Shown: positions 311-60,095 of the stretch, piece by piece
How positions within the stretch are numbered: position 1 is the stretch's first letter
How the letters are laid out: every line of letters begins with the position of its first letter
Origin: Acidobacteriota bacterium
GTDB taxonomy: Bacteria; Acidobacteriota; Holophagae; Holophagales; Holophagaceae
Direction: 5' to 3'
Assembly (NCBI GenBank): GCA_016192145.1
Contig: JACPUT010000002.1
Coordinates: 496,001 to 560,000 of the forward strand
Length of the DNA stretch: 64,000 nucleotides
Notes under the pieces: model-generated
Told to the model about the DNA's origin: nothing
The model's input: the letters and a program-made list of their open reading frames with translations, nothing else
The model's database searches: none
Program-made: the position numbers and the translations under genes

Positions 311-374
311 GGCCGCAGGCTGGAGGCTGGAAGTCGGGAACTGCCTCCGGTCTCCAGCCTCCAGCCTGGCGGCC
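311..374. repeat. Palindromic repeat element E1 (GGCTGGA-unit family)
   Basis: The left arm (311-332) has two AGGCTGGA-type units. The right arm (351-374) is its reverse complement apart from one inserted base and an end mismatch. The spacer is about 18 nt. It lies between the divergent metK and lipoprotein genes. The same unit builds elements E8 (30139) and E10 (44164). Confidence 0.75.
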
Positions 375-5747: not shown

Positions 5748-5874
5748 AACGCAGAGGCGCGGAGGCGCGGAGGCGCAGAGGAAGGAGGGGCCGCCATCTT
5801 CTCTGCAACCACGGGCATCAGCGATTCCTAGCCCTGCCTTTCTCTGCGCCTCCGCGCCTCTGCGCCTCTGCGTT
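5748..5874. repeat. Palindromic repeat element E2 (GCGGAGGC-unit family)
   Basis: The left arm (5748-5785) is four or five copies of an 8-bp unit G-C-[AG]-G-A-G-G-C. The right arm (5836-5874) is its reverse complement at about 36 of 38 positions. The spacer is about 50 nt. A further partial unit continues to 5880. It lies between two minus-strand genes. E7 (17226) has the same unit. Confidence 0.85.
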
Positions 5875-7371: not shown

Positions 7372-7426
7372 AAAGCTGGGCACAGAGGACACGGAGCGCC
7401 CTCTGTGTCCTCTGTGTCCTGCTTTC
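7372..7426. repeat. Palindromic repeat element E3 (CACAGAGGA-unit family)
   Basis: The left arm (7372-7396) and right arm (7401-7425) are near-perfect reverse complements built from the 9-bp unit CACAGAGGA. The spacer is only 4 nt, so this is the most compact element in the window. It lies between two minus-strand genes. E9 (41094) uses a closely related unit. Confidence 0.85.
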
Positions 7427-11347: not shown

Positions 11348-11391
11348 CTGCATTCGCCGGGGGGCGTCCATTGCGGGTGGACAAGAGAGTT

Positions 11392-11548
11392 ATCCACAGA
11401 TTTCACAGATTACACAGATTTAGAGGAGGGGCCTCTGCGCCGGGCGCAGGAACGAGCGGGTTGAGGACCAGCGGGCCGCCATTTGGGCCACCCCACGTCC
11501 CTTCCGGGCGCCAACCCTTGATCTGTGTAATCTGTGAAATCTGTGGAT
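11392..11548. repeat. Palindromic repeat element E4 (CACAGATTW-unit family)
   Basis: The left arm (11392-11419) consists of three 9-bp CACAGATT[TA] units and the right arm (11521-11548) is its perfect 28-bp reverse complement. The spacer is about 100 nt and shows no gene. Arms are A+T-rich in contrast to the high-GC spacer. It sits between the divergent holin-like and Ada-like genes, so it lies in or next to both promoters. Confidence 0.9.
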
Positions 11549-11620
11549 CCCCTTCTTCATCGCAAGAATCGGATTGAAGGGGCCAACCCCGGAGCCGAGT
11601 CTGGAATCCGGGAGCACACC

Positions 11621-12480: not shown

Positions 12481-12641
12481 AAAAAGAAAAGAAAACCAGT
12501 GATGAACAGTGATGAACGGTGATGGAGTACGGAGTGTCGATGGGATCGGCCCAAGGATGGCCTGGGTCGCAGTGCCTCGAGTCGGCGATCACCGTTCATC
12601 CCTTTTCATCACTGTTCATCCCCGGTTGCTTTTGCTTTTCT
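12481..12641. repeat. Palindromic repeat element E5 (GATGAACRGT-unit family)
   Basis: Left arm 12481-12524: an A-rich tail followed by 10-bp GATGAACAGT/GATGAACGGT units. Right arm 12587-12640 is the reverse complement with one extra unit. The spacer is about 60 nt. It lies 6 bp after the Ada-like stop codon and 11 bp before the alkA start. E11 at 51818 has the same unit and the same A-rich outer tail, so the two are true relatives. Confidence 0.85.
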
Positions 12642-17225: not shown

Positions 17226-17327
17226 GGGCCTGAAAAGCATCATGCAGAGGCGCAGAGAAAAGCGGGATGCGGAGGGTCTTTCCTCTGCGCCTCCGCGCCT
17301 CTGCGTTGAGCTTTTCTCTCAAGGCCC
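17226..17327. repeat. Palindromic repeat element E7 (GCAGAGGC-unit family)
   Basis: Left arm 17226-17260 and right arm 17281-17327 are imperfect reverse complements containing GGGCCT outer ends, an AAAGC block and 8-bp GC[AG]GAGGC units. The spacer is about 20 nt. It separates the phosphatase gene (17343-18182) from a duplicated C-terminal fragment of that gene (17124-17216). Same unit as E2. Confidence 0.8.
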
Positions 17328-17342
17328 AGCGGGTGGCATGCC

Positions 17343-18182
17343 CTATTCCGCCGGAAAGGCCTCGCCCAGCTTCACGGTGCCTTCCTCCCCGCCATGCTTG
17401 CCGAGGATGAAGGTCTTGGCCTTGTCGATGCCCAAGGCGGCATAGGCGTGGATGTCCGTGCGGGCGTTGCCGTAGGCGGCGCGGAAACTGAAGCCCAGGG
17501 CCTTCAGCGCCTGCAGGCGCTCCGTCTTGGCCCGGCCCACGCGCCCATCCGTGGGCAGGATGTCCCGGGCTTCGGGCATCAGGATGAGGATGCCTTCGGG
17601 CAGCTGATGGAAGGCCAGCCACTCGCGGGTGGGGCGACCCAGCCAGGGGGCGCGGCCCGAGAGGTAGACCACGGGCCCCTGGGCGGCGGCCCGCCGCACC
17701 GCCGCCACGGCGCCCTGGCGCAGCTTGGGGCCATCGGCCTTGGGGTTCCGCAGCAGGCGGCGGGCGTAGTCCTTGAAGTTCTCGGAGTCGGACGTGGTGA
17801 GCGTGCCGTCGATGTCGAAGATGGTGAGGGGCACGTCCCCGGCCAGCACGTGCAGTGTGGCCTCCGCGGTCTGCCCTTCGGCCGTCCAGCGCAGCGGGTA
17901 GCGGCCCGGAGTGGGGGGTGCGTTGAAGGCCGCAGCCACGCGGCCTTCGCCATCCGTGCGACCCACGCCCGTGGTCTCCCAGGAATCGCCTCGCTTCAGT
18001 TCGATGGTCACCGGCGCATGCTCCAGGGCCTTCTGCAGCCCGGCCGAGTTGGAGAACCAAGCCTCGGCCAGCACCGCGCCGTTGGGCCTGGCCACGGGGT
18101 CCGAGGCGCCGTGGTAGGGGGTGCGGGACGCAAAGGGGGTGGAGGCCAAGAGGGCTGGGAGGAGGAGCATCGACGGACGCAT
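17343..18182 (-). CDS. Secreted HAD phosphatase with LNS2-like motif
   Basis: 279 residues from the ATG at 18182, beginning with a signal peptide (MRPSMLLLPALLASTPFAS). Residues about 30-115 look like an Ig-like or transthyretin-like beta domain. From 120 onward is a HAD phosphatase: LTIFDIDGTLTTSD (Asp123 nucleophile, Asp125), VVYLSGRAPWLG (motif II) and a late GNARTDIHAYAALGI (motif IV). DxDGTlTxSD with the downstream NARTDxxAY is the LNS2 pattern known from lipin-type phosphatidate phosphatases and nucleotide phosphatases. A periplasmic phosphatase acting on a lipid or nucleotide is inferred. Only 20 bp downstream of the hybrid kinase gene and probably cotranscribed. Confidence 0.82.
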   Translation of the reverse strand: MRPSMLLLPALLASTPFASRTPYHGASDPVARPNGAVLAEAWFSNSAGLQKALEHAPVTIELKRGDSWETTGVGRTDGEGRVAAAFNAPPTPGRYPLRWTAEGQTAEATLHVLAGDVPLTIFDIDGTLTTSDSENFKDYARRLLRNPKADGPKLRQGAVAAVRRAAAQGPVVYLSGRAPWLGRPTREWLAFHQLPEGILILMPEARDILPTDGRVGRAKTERLQALKALGFSFRAAYGNARTDIHAYAALGIDKAKTFILGKHGGEEGTVKLGEAFPAE

Positions 18183-18202
18183 GCTCCATCCTATCCAATG
18201 CT

Positions 18203-20503
18203 CTAGGCGTTCCGGGGCGCCGCGGCACCTTGCAGGATTTGACAAAGAGTGTCGCGGCTAAAGGGCTTTTGAACCAGCCCGAGGGCGCCCAGCTCCAGGG
18301 ATTCACTAAGGTTCCGGTCGGGGGCGAATCCGGAGCAGAACAGCACCCGCACCTCCGGGTCCAGCAGCTTCAAGCGCCGGAAGGTCTCCTTGCCGCTCAG
18401 GCCGGGCATCACCAGGTCCAAGAGCACCAGGTCGATGGTCCCTTGGGCGCCTTGATAAATCGCCAGGCCCTCTTCCCCGCTGGGGGCGAGCAGGGGTTCG
18501 TGCCCGAGGGAGGCCAGGAGGCTGCCGACGGCGGTGCGGACCAGTTCCTGATCGTCGATGAAGAGGACTTTGAGTTTTCGAGTCGAGGGCGGCTCATCCG
18601 CCTGGGCCGTGGCCTCGGGGGCGTCGGGCGAGAGGGGGAGGAGCAGGTGGAAGGCCGTTCCCTGGAGTGCTTCGCTGGTCACTTCGAGGGCGCCGCCGTG
18701 GTTCTTCACGGTGCCATATACGGCCGCCAGGCCCAACCCCGTGCCCTGCCCCGCGGGTTTGGTGCTGAAGAAGGGTTCGAAGATCCGGGGCAGGATCTCG
18801 GGTGGAATGCCATGGCCCGTGTCGCTCACGCAAATCTCGAGGTGGGGGCCGGGATGGAGGGGGGCGCGAAGGCCTTCGCAGTCCGAAGCACTCAGGGTGA
18901 TCCGCGAGGTGGCGATGGCCAGGGTCCCGCCCTCGGGCATGGCGTCCCGGGCGTTGATGCCCAGGTTCAAGAGGGCCGTGTGGAGCAGGGCCGCATCTCC
19001 GCGAATCCAGGCCGGGCCGGGATCGAGGCGGACCCGGATGTGGATTCGGGGGTCGATGCAGCGCTCCAGGATGCCCTGGGTTTCCTGGATGAGGGCGTGG
19101 ACGTCCACCTGGGAGAACGACACGCTCCCTTTGCGGGAAAAGGTGAGCAGCTTGTGGATCAGGTTGGCCGCGTGCTCGGATCCCTCGAGGATCGTCTTCG
19201 CTTGGCGCAAGTGGGGCGATTCGGGGGGCAGGTTCAGCATCAGCAGCTCCGCGCAACCCTGGATCCCCGTGAGGATGTTGTTGAAGTCGTGAGCGATCCC
19301 GCCGGCCAGCTGGCCGAGGGCGTCCATCTTCTGGGCCTGTCGGAGGTTCGCTTCGGCTTCGGCCTGCAGGGTGACGTCTCGCAGGACGAGCACGTGGCCG
19401 CGCTCGATCCCCTCCGTGTTGAGAATGGGGGTCAGGTGCTCTGAGACCTTGTGTTGCGCTCCGTCCCGGGCCGTGAGCGTGTGGTAGCTGTCGCGGTCGT
19501 CTACCTGGATCCGGATCACCTTCTCCAAAGCCAGGCCCCGCGCCTCGTCGAGGCGCCACCCTGAGAGGGACTCCGCCACCGGGTTCATGGAGGTGACCCG
19601 TCCCTCGGGATCCGTGGATACGACCCCATCGCCGATGGAAGCGAGCGTGATCCTCAGGTTCTCCTCGCTTTCGCGAAGGGCGATCTCCGCCCGCTTGGCC
19701 TCGGTCACGTCGCGAAGGACGAACAAAAGGCTCTCCACCGATCCGCCGGAATCCAGCAAGGGGTGGAGGGTCCAATCCCAATAGGTCGTCCCCCACTCGG
19801 GATGATCCGGAAATTCGAAGGGCTTGGCGAGGATCGTGAAAGGTTCCCCCGTTCTCACCACCTTGCGGAAGATGGCTTCGTTCTCCTCGTGGGGGAATAG
19901 GTCGAAGTGGTTTTTCCCGGGGAAGAACTCGGGCGGGAATCCGCCTACGTCGGCGTAGGCGCGGTTCACGCGGATGAACCGGAACTCCCGGTCGAGGTAG
20001 GCCAGGGAGAAGTGCGTGCTGTCGAAGATGCGGCTGAGGATCTCCGTGCTTTCCCGCGCCTGGCGTTGGGCTTGCCGCTGTTCGGTGACGTCCTGGCCGA
20101 AGGAAAGGGTTCCGAAGACGACCCCATTCTCCGCGAGCACCTGGTTGCTCCAGGCGATGATCCGTTCTTCTCCCTTGCGGTTCAGGATGGGGTTCTCGAG
20201 GTGGGTGGGGAGCCTCCCATCCTTCAACTCGAGGAAGGTGGCCCAGACCTCGGGATAGCGCTCCCGGGGTACGAGGGTCTCGAACCAGTCCTGCCCCTTC
20301 AACTCCTCCACCCCGTATCCCGTAACGCGTTCCGCGGCGGCATTCATGGACCGGACCCGGCCCGTGTCATCCAAGGCGACGACCATGAATTCCGCCGAGC
20401 GGAGGAAGGGATCGATCGGCAGCCCGGCCCACAGCGGCGACGGATCCTCGCCGAGGGCCTGGACGGATCCTCGACCCTGGAGGGGCTGTGGGGAATCGGA
20501 CAT
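18203..20503 (-). CDS. PAS-domain hybrid sensor histidine kinase with receiver domain
   Basis: 766 residues from the ATG at 20503 (GAAGGGG upstream). No transmembrane helix is evident, so it is likely a cytoplasmic sensor. Three PAS domains cover about 30-145, 155-275 and 285-390 (FLRSAEFMVVALDDTGRVRS, LAYLDREFRFIRVN, VVSTDPEGRVTSMNPVAESL). HisKA follows with GGIAHDFNN (His405 phosphorylation site), then the ATPase domain with NLGINARDAMPEGG, DTGHGIPPE and GTGLGL. The C-terminal receiver has VLLDLVMPG (Asp696 phosphoacceptor). The ligand is unknown and no dedicated output regulator lies nearby. It sits between dnaE upstream and the LNS2 gene downstream, all on the minus strand. Confidence 0.93.
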   Translation of the reverse strand: MSDSPQPLQGRGSVQALGEDPSPLWAGLPIDPFLRSAEFMVVALDDTGRVRSMNAAAERVTGYGVEELKGQDWFETLVPRERYPEVWATFLELKDGRLPTHLENPILNRKGEERIIAWSNQVLAENGVVFGTLSFGQDVTEQRQAQRQARESTEILSRIFDSTHFSLAYLDREFRFIRVNRAYADVGGFPPEFFPGKNHFDLFPHEENEAIFRKVVRTGEPFTILAKPFEFPDHPEWGTTYWDWTLHPLLDSGGSVESLLFVLRDVTEAKRAEIALRESEENLRITLASIGDGVVSTDPEGRVTSMNPVAESLSGWRLDEARGLALEKVIRIQVDDRDSYHTLTARDGAQHKVSEHLTPILNTEGIERGHVLVLRDVTLQAEAEANLRQAQKMDALGQLAGGIAHDFNNILTGIQGCAELLMLNLPPESPHLRQAKTILEGSEHAANLIHKLLTFSRKGSVSFSQVDVHALIQETQGILERCIDPRIHIRVRLDPGPAWIRGDAALLHTALLNLGINARDAMPEGGTLAIATSRITLSASDCEGLRAPLHPGPHLEICVSDTGHGIPPEILPRIFEPFFSTKPAGQGTGLGLAAVYGTVKNHGGALEVTSEALQGTAFHLLLPLSPDAPEATAQADEPPSTRKLKVLFIDDQELVRTAVGSLLASLGHEPLLAPSGEEGLAIYQGAQGTIDLVLLDLVMPGLSGKETFRRLKLLDPEVRVLFCSGFAPDRNLSESLELGALGLVQKPFSRDTLCQILQGAAAPRNA

Positions 20504-30138: not shown

Positions 30139-30306
30139 TGAGGCTGGAGGCTGGAGGCTGGAGGCTGGAGACTGGAGACTGGAGACGGGAGACGGGAATT
30201 CGGGCGGTCGGATGAACCCGGATCCTGGCGGCACACCCGAAGGATCCGAGTGGGGCTTGGGCTGGCATGAAGCCTCCGGCCTCCAGCCTCCAGTCTCGAA
30301 CCTGCC
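30139..30306. repeat. Palindromic repeat element E8 (GGCTGGA-unit family)
   Basis: The left arm (30139-30196) is a run of 7-bp units GGCTGGA, then ACTGGAG and ACGGGAG. The right arm (about 30271-30306) carries the inverted units with a few substitutions. The spacer is about 75 nt with no gene. It fills the gap between convergent genes, starting just after one stop and touching the other, so it may also serve as a terminator. Confidence 0.8.
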
Positions 30307-41093: not shown

Positions 41094-41235
41094 AACCACA
41101 GAGGTCACAGAGGGCACAGAGGAGGACCGGTTGATCTGGATCGAAGCGTTTGCGGATGGCGAAGGAGACCGAGGGACGCGGCCATCCCTTGGGTGCCTTC
41201 GGCTTTCCTCCGTGCCCTCTGTGACCTCTGTGGTT
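41094..41235. repeat. Palindromic repeat element E9 (CACAGAGGK-unit family) inside an operon
   Basis: The left arm (41094-41123) and right arm (41206-41235) match as reverse complements at 29 of 30 bases, in three 9-bp units of the type CACAGAGG[TGA]. Weaker complementarity continues outward by some 15 bp. The 80-nt spacer contains no gene. It lies between moxR and the DUF58 gene, which families of this cluster are expected to cotranscribe. Confidence 0.9.
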
Positions 41236-44163: not shown

Positions 44164-44299
44164 GGAGACTGGAGGCTGGAGGCTGGAGACCGGAGGCTGG
44201 AAGCGGCGCGGCGCCAGAGGCGCCGGCCCCATCTCGTGGTGCGGCCTCCGGCCGCAGCGATTTCCCGCCTCCGGTCTCCAGTCTCCAGCCTCCAGCCTA
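44164..44299. repeat. Palindromic repeat element E10 (GGCTGGA-unit family)
   Basis: Left arm 44166-44201 and right arm 44264-44298 are reverse complements at most positions, built from GGCTGGA and GACTGGA units. The 60-nt spacer contains two further perfect stems (GGCGCC-AGA-GGCGCC and GCGGCC-TCC-GGCCGC). It begins two bases after the sulfurtransferase stop. Same family as E1 and E8. Confidence 0.8.
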
Positions 44300-51817: not shown

Positions 51818-51897
51818 AAAGAAAACCGGTGATGAACAGTGATGGCACTTCGACCCACCATCCCTGTTCATCACTGTTCATCACTGGTTGATCTTTT
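51818..51897. repeat. Palindromic repeat element E11 (GATGAACAGT-unit family)
   Basis: Left arm 51818-51845 and right arm 51858-51897 are reverse complements apart from an extra unit and a 2-base indel, with a 12-nt spacer. The arms comprise an A-rich end (AAAGAAAACC) and GATGAACAGT units. The unit and the A-rich end match E5, 39 kb away. The rest of the 392-bp gap (51743-52134) contains a weak minus-strand frame but no gene I trust. Confidence 0.88.
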
Positions 51898-57361: not shown

Positions 57362-58924
57362 ATGCGCATTCTCGCTTGTGACGGCATTCATGAAGATGGC
57401 CTCCAGCTCTTCCGCGCGGAAGGGTGGGAGGTGATTCCCTCGGAGCCCATCAAGGATCCGAAGTCCCTGGCCCAAGCGCTGGATCATGCAGACGTGCTGC
57501 TGGTCCGCAGCGCCACGAAAGTGCCCGCGGAGGTCATCCATGGCGCCTCGCACCTGCGCGTGATCGGCCGCGCCGGCGCCGGCGTCGACACCATCGACGT
57601 GGACGCGGCCACGGAGTCCGGCATCGCGGTGATGAACGCGCCGGACGGCAACACGCTGGCGGCCGCGGAACAGGCCCTGGCTCTGCTCTTTTCACTGGCC
57701 CGCCACGTGCCCGCCGCGGACGCGGGGATGAAGGCGGGCGAATGGCCCAAGACGGGCCTCACGGGCTTCGAGCTGGAGGGGAAGAACCTCGGCGTCATCG
57801 GCCTGGGCCGCATCGGCGCCACGGTGGCGCGCAAGGCCAAGGGCATCGGCATGGAGGTGGCGGCCTTCGACCCCTTCCTTCCCGAGGCGGCGGCGGGTCG
57901 CCTGGGGGTGCCCATGATGGACCTGGAGTCGCTGCTTGGCTGGGCGGACGTCATCACGCTCCACATCCCCCGCACGAAGGAGACGACGAACCTCCTGGAC
58001 GAAGCGCGGCTCAAGAAGATGAAGAAGGACGCCTGCCTCATCAACGCGGCCCGGGGCGGCCTCGTGGATGAGGCGGCCCTGCTGAAGCTGTTGGAGAAGG
58101 GCCACCTGCGGGGCGCCGCCCTGGATACCTTCGTCACCGAGCCCCTGCCCGCGGACTCGCCCCTGCGCCAGAATCCCCGCCTCATCCTCACGCCCCACCT
58201 GGGCGCCAGCACCGGCGAGGCGCAAAAGGCCGTGAGCGTCATCCTCGCGCGCCAGATCATCGACTTCATCAAGACGGGCGCCGTGGCGGGCTGCGTCAAC
58301 CTGCCCCCGCTCTCGCCCGAAGCCGCCGTGGAGGTGGGCCCCTGGATGCCGCTCATGACGGCGCTGGGCAAGCTGGCGGCCCGCCTCGTGCCCGCCCCCA
58401 CCAAGCTGCAAGTCACCTACGCCGGCCGCACAGACAAGCTGGACCCTCGCCCCCTCACGCGCCTCCTGGTGGCGGGCCTGCTCGCCAATGCCTCCGGCCA
58501 CGTGACCCCCGTGAATGCCTTGGCTGAAGCCACGGCCCGCGGATTGGAAGTGGCGGAAACCCACGGCGGAGATGGCGATGGCTTCGACCGGCTCGTGCGG
58601 TTGCGCATCGAGGGAGCGGGGGGCGTCCGCGAAGTGGAGGCCACCTTGCATCGCGGTCCCCGCGTCGTCCGCCTGGATGGCGTGGAACTGGACTTCGATC
58701 CCCGCGCCCACATCCTGCTCATGCGCAACGAGGATCGCCCGGGCGTCATCGGCCTCGTGGGCAGCCACCTCGGCGCCGCCGGCATCAACATCGTCAACTT
58801 CGCCCTGGGCTCCACGGGCCACGGTCAGGCCCTCGCGGCCATCACAGTGGATCGCACCGTGCCCGACAAGCAGGTGATCGGGCTGCGGTCCATTCCCGGG
58901 ATCCTCGGGTTGGAGATGGTGTGA
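57362..58924 (+). CDS. serA: D-3-phosphoglycerate dehydrogenase (long form with ASB and ACT domains)
   Basis: 520 residues from the ATG at 57362. Oxidises 3-phosphoglycerate, the first step of serine synthesis. The NAD-binding core has VGVIGLGRIGATVARKAKG (near residue 145) and the catalytic set VRSATKVPAEVI, GRAGAGVDTIDVDAATESG, RGGLVDEAALLKLL and LTPHLGASTGEAQ. After residue about 310 come the allosteric-substrate-binding domain and, from about 440, an ACT domain (ILLMRNEDRPGVIGLVGSHL), so feedback control by serine is expected. It follows the aminotransferase and overlaps the GxxExxY gene by one base (TGATG). Confidence 0.95.
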   Translation: MRILACDGIHEDGLQLFRAEGWEVIPSEPIKDPKSLAQALDHADVLLVRSATKVPAEVIHGASHLRVIGRAGAGVDTIDVDAATESGIAVMNAPDGNTLAAAEQALALLFSLARHVPAADAGMKAGEWPKTGLTGFELEGKNLGVIGLGRIGATVARKAKGIGMEVAAFDPFLPEAAAGRLGVPMMDLESLLGWADVITLHIPRTKETTNLLDEARLKKMKKDACLINAARGGLVDEAALLKLLEKGHLRGAALDTFVTEPLPADSPLRQNPRLILTPHLGASTGEAQKAVSVILARQIIDFIKTGAVAGCVNLPPLSPEAAVEVGPWMPLMTALGKLAARLVPAPTKLQVTYAGRTDKLDPRPLTRLLVAGLLANASGHVTPVNALAEATARGLEVAETHGGDGDGFDRLVRLRIEGAGGVREVEATLHRGPRVVRLDGVELDFDPRAHILLMRNEDRPGVIGLVGSHLGAAGINIVNFALGSTGHGQALAAITVDRTVPDKQVIGLRSIPGILGLEMV

Positions 58925-59376
58925 TGGAAAGGAAAACTACTAACGCGGAGGAAAGCGGAGAAAAGCCGGAGGTGAGCGGAGGAGGACTCGAGTTGGAACT
59001 GGAGGCGCTGACCGAACGGATCATCGGTTGTGCCATCCAGGTTCAGCGAAGGCTTGGGCCGGGCCTTCTGGAAGGCACCTACCAGGTTTGCCTCGCCCAC
59101 GAACTCCGGAAGGAAGGTCTAGCGGTTGAAACCGAAGTCCCGATCGACCTTAAATATGACGACCTTGTGATCGAGCGGGCGTACCGCCTGGACCTCCTGA
59201 TCGAAGGGACCGTCGTCGTGGAACTCAAAACAACGGATCGGCTAACTGAGGCCCACCTGGCTCAGCTCTTTACCTACCTTCGATTCGCAAACAAGCGACT
59301 GGGCCTCCTCCTCAACCTTTGGCGGTGGCCCCTCAAAGACGGTGGAATCAAGCGGGTACTCAATTCCCACCCTTGA
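58924..59376 (+). CDS. GxxExxY protein (PD-(D/E)xK nuclease-like) embedded in palindromic element E13
   Basis: 150 residues; ATG at 58924, overlapping serA's TGA as TGATG. Motifs: GLLEGTY (Gly47-Tyr53), the family name pattern, preceded by GCAIQVQRRLGPG; then RLDLL (Asp90) and VVELKTT (Glu100, Lys102), the D...ExK core expected for a PD-(D/E)xK nuclease (Pfam PF13366/TIGR04256). Residues about 4-20 (KTTNAEESGEKPEVSGG) are encoded by the left arm of the palindrome, and the stop lies 9 bp before the right arm. The arrangement suggests the gene and its arms form one unit. The biochemical role of the family is not established. Confidence 0.88.
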   Translation: MERKTTNAEESGEKPEVSGGGLELELEALTERIIGCAIQVQRRLGPGLLEGTYQVCLAHELRKEGLAVETEVPIDLKYDDLVIERAYRLDLLIEGTVVVELKTTDRLTEAHLAQLFTYLRFANKRLGLLLNLWRWPLKDGGIKRVLNSHP

Positions 59377-59435
59377 CCCATCTTGCTCCGTTCACCTCCG
59401 GCCTTTCTCCGCTCACCTCTGCGTTAGTAGTTATT
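58933..59435. mobile_element. Palindromic element E13: inverted arms flanking the GxxExxY gene
   Basis: Left arm 58933-58983 and right arm 59385-59435 match as reverse complements at roughly 44 of 48 aligned positions. Units are 10 bp of the form GCGGAG[GA]AA[AG]. The arms lie on either side of the GxxExxY coding region. No terminal transposase-type motif and no target-site duplication was recognised, so its mobility is an inference from structure and from the twelve gene-less relatives in the window. Confidence 0.75.
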
Positions 59436-59447
59436 CAAGAGTTCCCC

Positions 59448-60095
59448 ATGCGCATCCTCCTCTGCCGTCACGGTGAAACGCCCTGGAACGCCGAAGGGCG
59501 CTACCAGGGACAGATCGATATTCCCCTCGCGCCCACGGGCGAAGCGCAGGCCCGCGCCCTGGGCCTCCGCCTGATGGAGCAGCCCATTACGCGCGCGGTC
59601 GCCTCGCCGCTCGCCCGGGCCCGCCGCACCGCGGAACTCGCCCTGGGCGACGAGCGAGTGGGCCTGCTCACCTTCGATGAGGGGTTCAAAGAAATCGCCC
59701 ACGGTGAATGGGAGGGGCTGCTGGCCACGGAGATCCGGGAGCGGGACCCCGAGCGCCTCCGGGCCTGGCGGGAGGCGCCGGATCAGGTGCTCATGCCCGG
59801 GGGGGAGAGCCTGCCCCTCGTGCTGGATCGGGCCTGGCCCGCCTTCGCCCGGGCCTGCGCGGGGCTCGGTCCCCCGGACACGCTGCTGCTGGTCGCCCAC
59901 GATGCGGTGAACCGGGTGCTGCTCTGCCGCATCCTGGGCCTGCCGCTGTCCCGGGTCTGGGGCTTCCGCCAGGCGCCCGCGACGCTGAACCTCCTGGAAG
60001 GCCCCGACGTGGACCACTTGGAGGTGGTGCGCCTCAACGACTGCTCGCATCACCTGCCGGGCCTGTTCGGGGAGGCCGTCCACCGGGCGTTGTAA
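59448..60095 (+). CDS. Histidine phosphatase family protein (phosphoglycerate-mutase-like)
   Basis: 215 residues, ATG at 59448. LLCRHGETPWNAEGRYQGQID carries the RHGE catalytic His and the substrate-binding Arg. The later ASPLARARRTAEL and LLVAHDAVNRVLLCRILGL supply the second active-site Arg and His. Members include cobalamin phosphatases (CobC), phosphoserine phosphatases and broad-range phosphatases. Given the aminotransferase and serA just upstream, a phosphoserine phosphatase role is attractive but unproven. The start lies 13 bp after the right arm of element E13, and AAGAG is the only ribosome-site candidate. Confidence 0.85.
   Translation: MRILLCRHGETPWNAEGRYQGQIDIPLAPTGEAQARALGLRLMEQPITRAVASPLARARRTAELALGDERVGLLTFDEGFKEIAHGEWEGLLATEIRERDPERLRAWREAPDQVLMPGGESLPLVLDRAWPAFARACAGLGPPDTLLLVAHDAVNRVLLCRILGLPLSRVWGFRQAPATLNLLEGPDVDHLEVVRLNDCSHHLPGLFGEAVHRAL

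Follow-up and report, generated by a model that had tools for sequence, protein, structure and literature searches.

GxxExxY genes between inverted arms of tandem 7-nt words: a possible undescribed class of mobile palindromic element

Introduction

The RAYT/REP systems (REPIN, REPtron) pair a small enzyme gene with palindromic DNA. Every RAYT gene lies between two REPs in inverted orientation (PMC2817692), and REPs are short single palindromes with a GTAG head (PMC2817692, PMC3733652). The GxxExxY elements described here resemble these systems in that a small enzyme gene is flanked by inverted palindromes, gene-less copies are scattered through intergenic regions, enzyme and palindrome appear matched, and no target duplication accompanies them. 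They differ in the enzyme: RAYT itself is a tyrosine transposase of the Y1/HUH type (PF01797), which is absent from the genome under study (G000) and unrelated in fold to the GxxExxY protein. Furthermore, the GxxExxY arms are long and composed of tandem 7-nt words, with the gene usually located inside the hairpin loop.

Other known systems share individual traits with these elements. MITEs of DDE insertion sequences are likewise non-autonomous inverted-repeat elements relying on an autonomous relative, but the GxxExxY element carries no DDE transposase and shows no target duplication. Homing endonucleases of the PD-(D/E)XK fold are, like GxxExxY, encoded by a lone nuclease gene with a selfish, patchy distribution; however, GxxExxY lacks an intron or intein host, and its presumed recognition words flank its own gene and recur in gene-less relatives. 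The Cas4/RecB/lambda-exonuclease group supplies the nearest solved folds, weak Cas4 profile matches, and a common D...ExK...QxxxY signature. Cas4 participates in prespacer processing (PMC6519985). In contrast to Cas4, the GxxExxY protein is only about 120 aa long, lacks conserved cysteines for an iron-sulphur cluster, and is encoded alone between arms. Given that the GxxExxY element fails a defining feature of each known class tested, we consider it new, with a way of life analogous to that of REPtrons. A search of open-access PMC papers by family names and arm words retrieved no description of the gene-arm association, and no functional study of GxxExxY was found in the open-access literature.

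Element E13 and Its Gene-Less Relatives

The window, a stretch of 64,000 nucleotides from an Acidobacteriota genome, contains a palindromic element termed E13 (58935-59432), whose inverted arms enclose a GxxExxY/PDDEXK_3 gene. The arms, 52 nt long, 87% complementary, and 394 nt apart, form the longest inverted repeat within 1.5 kb in the whole window and are far beyond chance, an origin ruled out by shuffled-sequence and displaced-window controls. A gene resembling 3-phosphoglycerate dehydrogenase ends at 58924, on one side of E13, and one resembling phosphoglycerate mutase starts at 59448, on the other; both were named by eye from their translations. The features of E13 are the following:

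58935..58986, + strand: left arm of E13, units built on GCGGAG: AACTACTAACGCGGAGGAAAGCGGAGAAAAGCCGGAGGTGAGCGGAGGAGGA
59381..59432, + strand: right arm of E13, reverse complement of the left arm; starts 4 nt past the stop codon
58921..59376, + strand: GxxExxY / PDDEXK_3 ORF, 151 aa, from GTG 58921; ATG 58924 is in frame
58993..59376, + strand: more likely translated part, 127 aa, from TTG 58993, downstream of the left arm
58980..58985, + strand: Shine-Dalgarno-like AGGAGG, supplied by the last unit of the left arm
59062..59265, + strand: (near-)invariant family residues G48, E51, Y54, D91, E101-x-K103, and Q115, a RecB/Cas4-type PD-(D/E)XK signature

The initial annotation had placed a complete GxxExxY gene in the spacer of E13, with the right arm just after its stop codon, and both statements hold. 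The spacer contains a single complete ORF, whose product exceeds the cut-offs of TIGR04256 GxxExxY (126.9 bits, cut-off 35, profile positions 2-115 of 116) and PF13366 PDDEXK_3 (125.6 bits, cut-off 22, profile positions 2-116 of 117); its stop codon ends at 59376, and the arm begins at 59381. The same annotation had read the left arm as the coding sequence of residues 4-20. Translation from GTG 58921 or ATG 58924 does place the arm in frame, as about residues 5-22, but TTG 58993, with a perfect AGGAGG seven bases upstream that is formed by the last arm unit, appears from the sequence to be an equally good or better start, and the left arm may thus go untranslated. In the predicted structure, residues 1-19 of the window protein are of low confidence and the remainder is good (mean pLDDT 89.7).

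About a dozen further hairpins with tandem arms and no gene were found in the window, in agreement with the annotation's account of the other elements, compared with none (strict detector) or one (loose detector) in locally shuffled sequence. A search for known RNA families in the hairpins gave no Rfam match in the window. No strand is assigned to these features. All are gene-less hairpins apart from one degenerate gene-less element, and each is listed with its arm units:

311..374: GGCTGGAG
5748..5874: CGCRGAG; arm words nearest to those of E13; DNA fold z = -8.9
7372..7425: CACRGAG
11383..11557: CACAGAT
12482..12639: CAGTGATGAA
13550..13883: CGCGAA; the degenerate element, with a 258-nt spacer
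17232..17316: CGCRGAG
30140..30303: GGCTGGA
41094..41235: CACAGAG; arms 97% complementary
44164..44298: GGCTGGA
51818..51896: CAGTGATGAA
57249..57342: CGCGAAT

Hairpins of the GGCTCTG and GGCTGGA families are abundant in G000 (C1 1-260000, L356-L368; window positions 311, 30140, and 44164), and their words are unlike those of any GxxExxY-bearing element found.

A Cas4-Like Protein under Purifying Selection

Across 101 aligned sequences (alignment A3), E51, D91, E101, and K103 are invariant and Q115 and Y119 nearly so, with Q115 present in over 90%; no cysteine occurs among the invariant or near-invariant columns. The dN/dS values of GxxExxY genes (0.03-0.11) correspond to strong purifying selection. 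A sequence search for solved structures found no relative of GxxExxY. The solved folds nearest to the predicted structure are those of Cas4 (4ic1, probability 0.98, E 0.013), lambda exonuclease, LHK-Exo, MGME1, and RecE, a likeness at the fold level only given the best E of 0.013, and matches to Cas4 profiles are weak (E about 7e-4). Nuclease activity is an inference for which no biochemical data were found. Relatives of the Cas4/lambda-exonuclease type act on DNA ends or single strands; by analogy, this fits a hairpin or single-stranded substrate for GxxExxY but does not show it.

Inverted Arms around GxxExxY Genes across Phyla

Five GxxExxY genes were identified in G000, four of them between inverted arms of differing tandem words and the fifth with a complete hairpin beside it. 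Additional loci came from three sources: Acidobacteriota-type relatives of the window, the phylum to which a Geobacteraceae genome belongs, and a scan across phyla, whose sample leans to the GPGLLES clade because the narrower alignment A2 was used as query. This yielded 188 non-redundant genes, 185 of which had enough flank for the arm test (flanking inverted repeat score of at least 16; controls, windows displaced by 1.1 kb at the same loci). A general lack of flanking inverted arms in other genomes had been set beforehand as grounds for refutation. The idea passed this test, with arms flanking 134 of the 185 genes compared with 2 of 328 displaced control windows; in the cross-phylum subset, the corresponding figures are 52/77 and 5/270. 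Armed loci span Pseudomonadota, Bacteroidota, Chloroflexota, Planctomycetota, Verrucomicrobiota, Cyanobacteria, Armatimonadota, Spirochaetota, and others, and one locus (L169) lies in a Methanoperedens genome. The median element is 486 nt long, and its right arm follows the stop codon after a median of 8.5 nt; GxxExxY is the sole gene between the arms, nearly filling the space. The companion proposal, that arm-encoded N-termini are general, failed: a start codon follows the arm in 121 of the 134 armed loci, and this trait was dropped as a defining feature.

About 28% of GxxExxY genes lack detectable arms. Six copies fetched from the genome of Rhodopila globiformis (G070, also the source of L103), L411-L416, all lack detectable inverted arms and could belong to an arm-less branch or to one with a changed lifestyle. 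Carriage as plasmid or phage cargo was rejected, as the family occurs in 8 of 72,556 plasmids and 0 of 50,697 phages.

Arm Words Follow the Protein Tree

Each arm repeats a 7-nt word 2-4 times in tandem at a core spacing of 8-9 nt, often with a TTMACC...GGTKAA cap in the arm-end consensus. Most words belong to one of two classes, CRCRRAG or CRCRRAT; relatives of these also occur. On a tree of the 125 proteins whose arms fall into one class, word class requires only 2 changes, compared with a mean of 22.3 in shuffles (range 17-24; 0/500 as low). The deepest split of the tree separates CRCRRAG from CRCRRAT with a single exception (L034). A further fit is seen inside the CRCRRAG clade, where the choice between GAG and AAG (word position 5) tracks the tree as well (13 vs 20.6 changes, 0/500).

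Arms and gene travel together, and some correlation between word and protein is therefore expected from common descent. Nevertheless, pairs of related elements at dS 0.7-3.8, where synonymous sites are saturated, retain the same word, which argues that shared words do not merely reflect recent common descent. At such divergence, and with protein identity of only about 50-60% between members of different phyla, unconstrained arm DNA should have been randomised; the persistence of the words indicates selection for a match. These comparisons provide good evidence for a functional match between protein and arms. The clades are separated by residues 118 (T/S vs N), 134, and 139 and by a small insertion near 140-143. 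Residue 118 was selected on the tree set; by itself it gives the correct word class for 15 of 17 later loci, a partial hold-out given that at least three of these (L369, L389, and L427) were already in the tree set.

Gene-Less Arrays in Gene-Bearing Genomes

Arrays of three CRCRGAG words were sought in 297 genomes of the phylum. They occur in 79 of 106 genomes with GxxExxY and 26 of 191 without (odds ratio 18.6, p 4e-26), and at least 10 arrays are present in 50 genomes with the gene but in only 2 without a detected gene. The test was not corrected for phylogeny, and the genomes are not independent, so the p value is too small; the contrast is still large. In 400-kb samples from a single genus, strict hairpins number 6 in G034 (6 genes), 6 in G370 (3 genes), and 0 in G021 (0 genes). 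Such a distribution supports the annotation's proposal of an autonomous element with non-autonomous relatives, in which movement in trans, arm binding, and nuclease activity are inferred.

Agreement of words within single genomes is mixed. In G034, 10 of 14 gene-less hairpins share a word with a gene-bearing element of that genome (e.g., CACCAAG with L352), whereas most gene-less words in G370, G014, and G000 match no gene-bearing element of their own genome, and G000 contains whole families (GGCTCTG, GGCTGGA) without a cognate gene. Gene-less families thus often outlive or lack a local partner gene, and strict own-genome word matching was set aside as proof. A CGCGAAA-armed hairpin in G034 (18122-18269 of the 400-kb sample from 900001) contains CGCCAAG words in its loop; judging from this arrangement, the elements appear to nest in one another.

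Proposed Mechanism

We consider it fairly probable that E13 belongs to a very widespread family of selfish elements, each a compact palindrome of about 0.49 kb. The Cas4-like nuclease of such an element would act on the element's own arms and also in trans on relatives that lack the gene. The GxxExxY protein would recognise the words in its arms, most likely when these extrude as a hairpin or become single-stranded at a replication fork, and would cut near the arm bases. Host replication and repair would then copy or re-insert the hairpin elsewhere, and gene-less hairpins with matching words would be non-autonomous relatives served in trans. PD-(D/E)XK enzymes hydrolyse DNA, and none is known to join strands alone; re-insertion would therefore need an unidentified host step.

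Sequence comparison directly supplies the gene-arm association, the covariation of word and protein, the concentration of gene-less arms in gene-bearing genomes, the purifying selection on catalytic residues, and the syntenic presence/absence detailed below. Nuclease activity, arm binding, the site and specificity of cutting, insertion or transposition, mobilisation in trans, and the ssDNA-hairpin route are inferences. Counting against this explanation are the arm-less genes (about 28%), the poor own-genome word match in three genomes, the two genomes that have at least 10 arrays but no detected gene, and the missing target-site duplication.

Turnover, Copying, and Alternative Explanations

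Evidence on movement comes in part from one short orthologous intergenic site compared across 20-21 sampled species of one genus. This site is gene-bearing in G034 and G445 (CGCAGAT) and in G414 (CACAGAT), decayed in G355 (CACAGAT), and gene-less in G370 (CGCGAAT), G014 and G422 (CGCGAA), and G031 (CGCAGAG-like). In the remaining species it measures only 39-40 bp, and this short "empty" version still keeps TCCAACC...GGTTGGA. At several other sites the words differ between species, and some sites hold no element. A set of 52 anchored hairpins revealed no target-site duplication and no excess of direct repeats at any offset (all z <= 1.7).

The main rival explanation, homing through break repair, draws on these observations. 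GxxExxY would cut elements or near-empty sites containing its word, the break would be repaired from a gene-bearing copy, and the palindromes would multiply by other means (replication slippage, template switching). Homing fits the re-use of the same sites, with differing words and with or without the gene in sister species, the remnant in the "empty" form, the lack of target duplication, and the nature of the protein, a solitary nuclease whose fold does not join DNA. However, the gene-bearing and gene-less versions at the studied site differ in word, where direct homing predicts the same word; gene-less copies are rare in gene-free genomes, so that their number seems gene-dependent; and some elements are absent from sites without any element-like remnant. 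The series of empty, gene-less, and gene-bearing alleles is compatible with homing without being decisive, and we regard homing as an unlikely account overall.

In the G147 genome, a pair of copies matches at 95% identity across 530 nt and ceases to match right after the arm end GCGGTTCAAAA. By their sequence, this pair represents a recent copying event, the left end being less clear. Between GxxExxY genes of the same genome, L417 (about 1250-1950) contains by eye an MNT-type nucleotidyltransferase-like and HEPN (DUF86-like) gene pair, a possible toxin-antitoxin pair.

A second alternative gives the protein a host-serving role, in which the nuclease processes hairpins or limits palindromes and the arms are only a regulatory target (autoregulation or processing of its own message). 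Strong purifying selection, arms lying directly at both gene ends, and the ability of the last arm unit to serve as a ribosome-binding site in the window copy are in its favor. In contrast, the distribution is that of a selfish element: presence is patchy (106/297 and 42/118 genomes), copies reach 14 or more per genome, sites differ between sister species, and words turn over rapidly. A host role consequently appears improbable.

The proposal that the arms are moved by a RAYT/Y1 transposase or a DDE insertion sequence with GxxExxY as cargo is largely refuted and merits hardly any credence, because, apart from most copies in one genome (G006) that ride with an IS5-like transposase gene, elements occur in G000, G370, G014, G031, G308, and G437 with no Y1 transposase (PF01797), no target duplication is seen, a cargo gene would not covary with arm words, and GxxExxY nearly fills the inter-arm space of elements with a median of 486 bp. 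For G000, the genome of the window, RAYT was rejected as the mover on the same absence. Five equally scoring Y1 transposase genes are present in G034:C1, apparently copies of one IS200/IS605-type element that is absent from five other searched genomes of the family. The exceptional genome, G006, harbors about 50 near-identical GxxExxY elements (L045-L071; L075 2674-3890, L077 4668-5984), many sharing an internal deletion of about 200 bp in the nuclease gene with both arms intact. These copies were probably amplified by the IS5-like element carrying them, and their high number was rejected as proof of self-mobility on account of the transposase alongside.

Significance

GxxExxY genes are annotated in very many genomes without a function, and hairpins like ACCACAGAGGACACAGAGG are scattered unexplained in the same genomes; the finding that the protein clade predicts the arm word links the two. 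The joint change of nuclease and arm words across phyla suggests self-spreading elements of an as yet undescribed class, many copies of which lack the gene. In its full form, the proposal is of a mobile palindromic class that is bacteria-wide and at least once archaeal, whose sole protein, a Cas4-like nuclease, would read its own 7-nt arm words and spread gene-bearing and gene-less copies without a known transposase, enzyme and word co-evolving; on the evidence of sequence comparison, we judge the case for it to be evenly balanced. If true, this would define a class of mobile elements built on a nuclease that has no known ability to transpose by itself. It would also provide a naturally occurring set of enzymes whose 7-nt specificities can be read off, and the RAYT/REP lifestyle would have arisen a second time, independently. 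Because enzymes and words come in matched pairs, the claim can be put directly to bench experiments.
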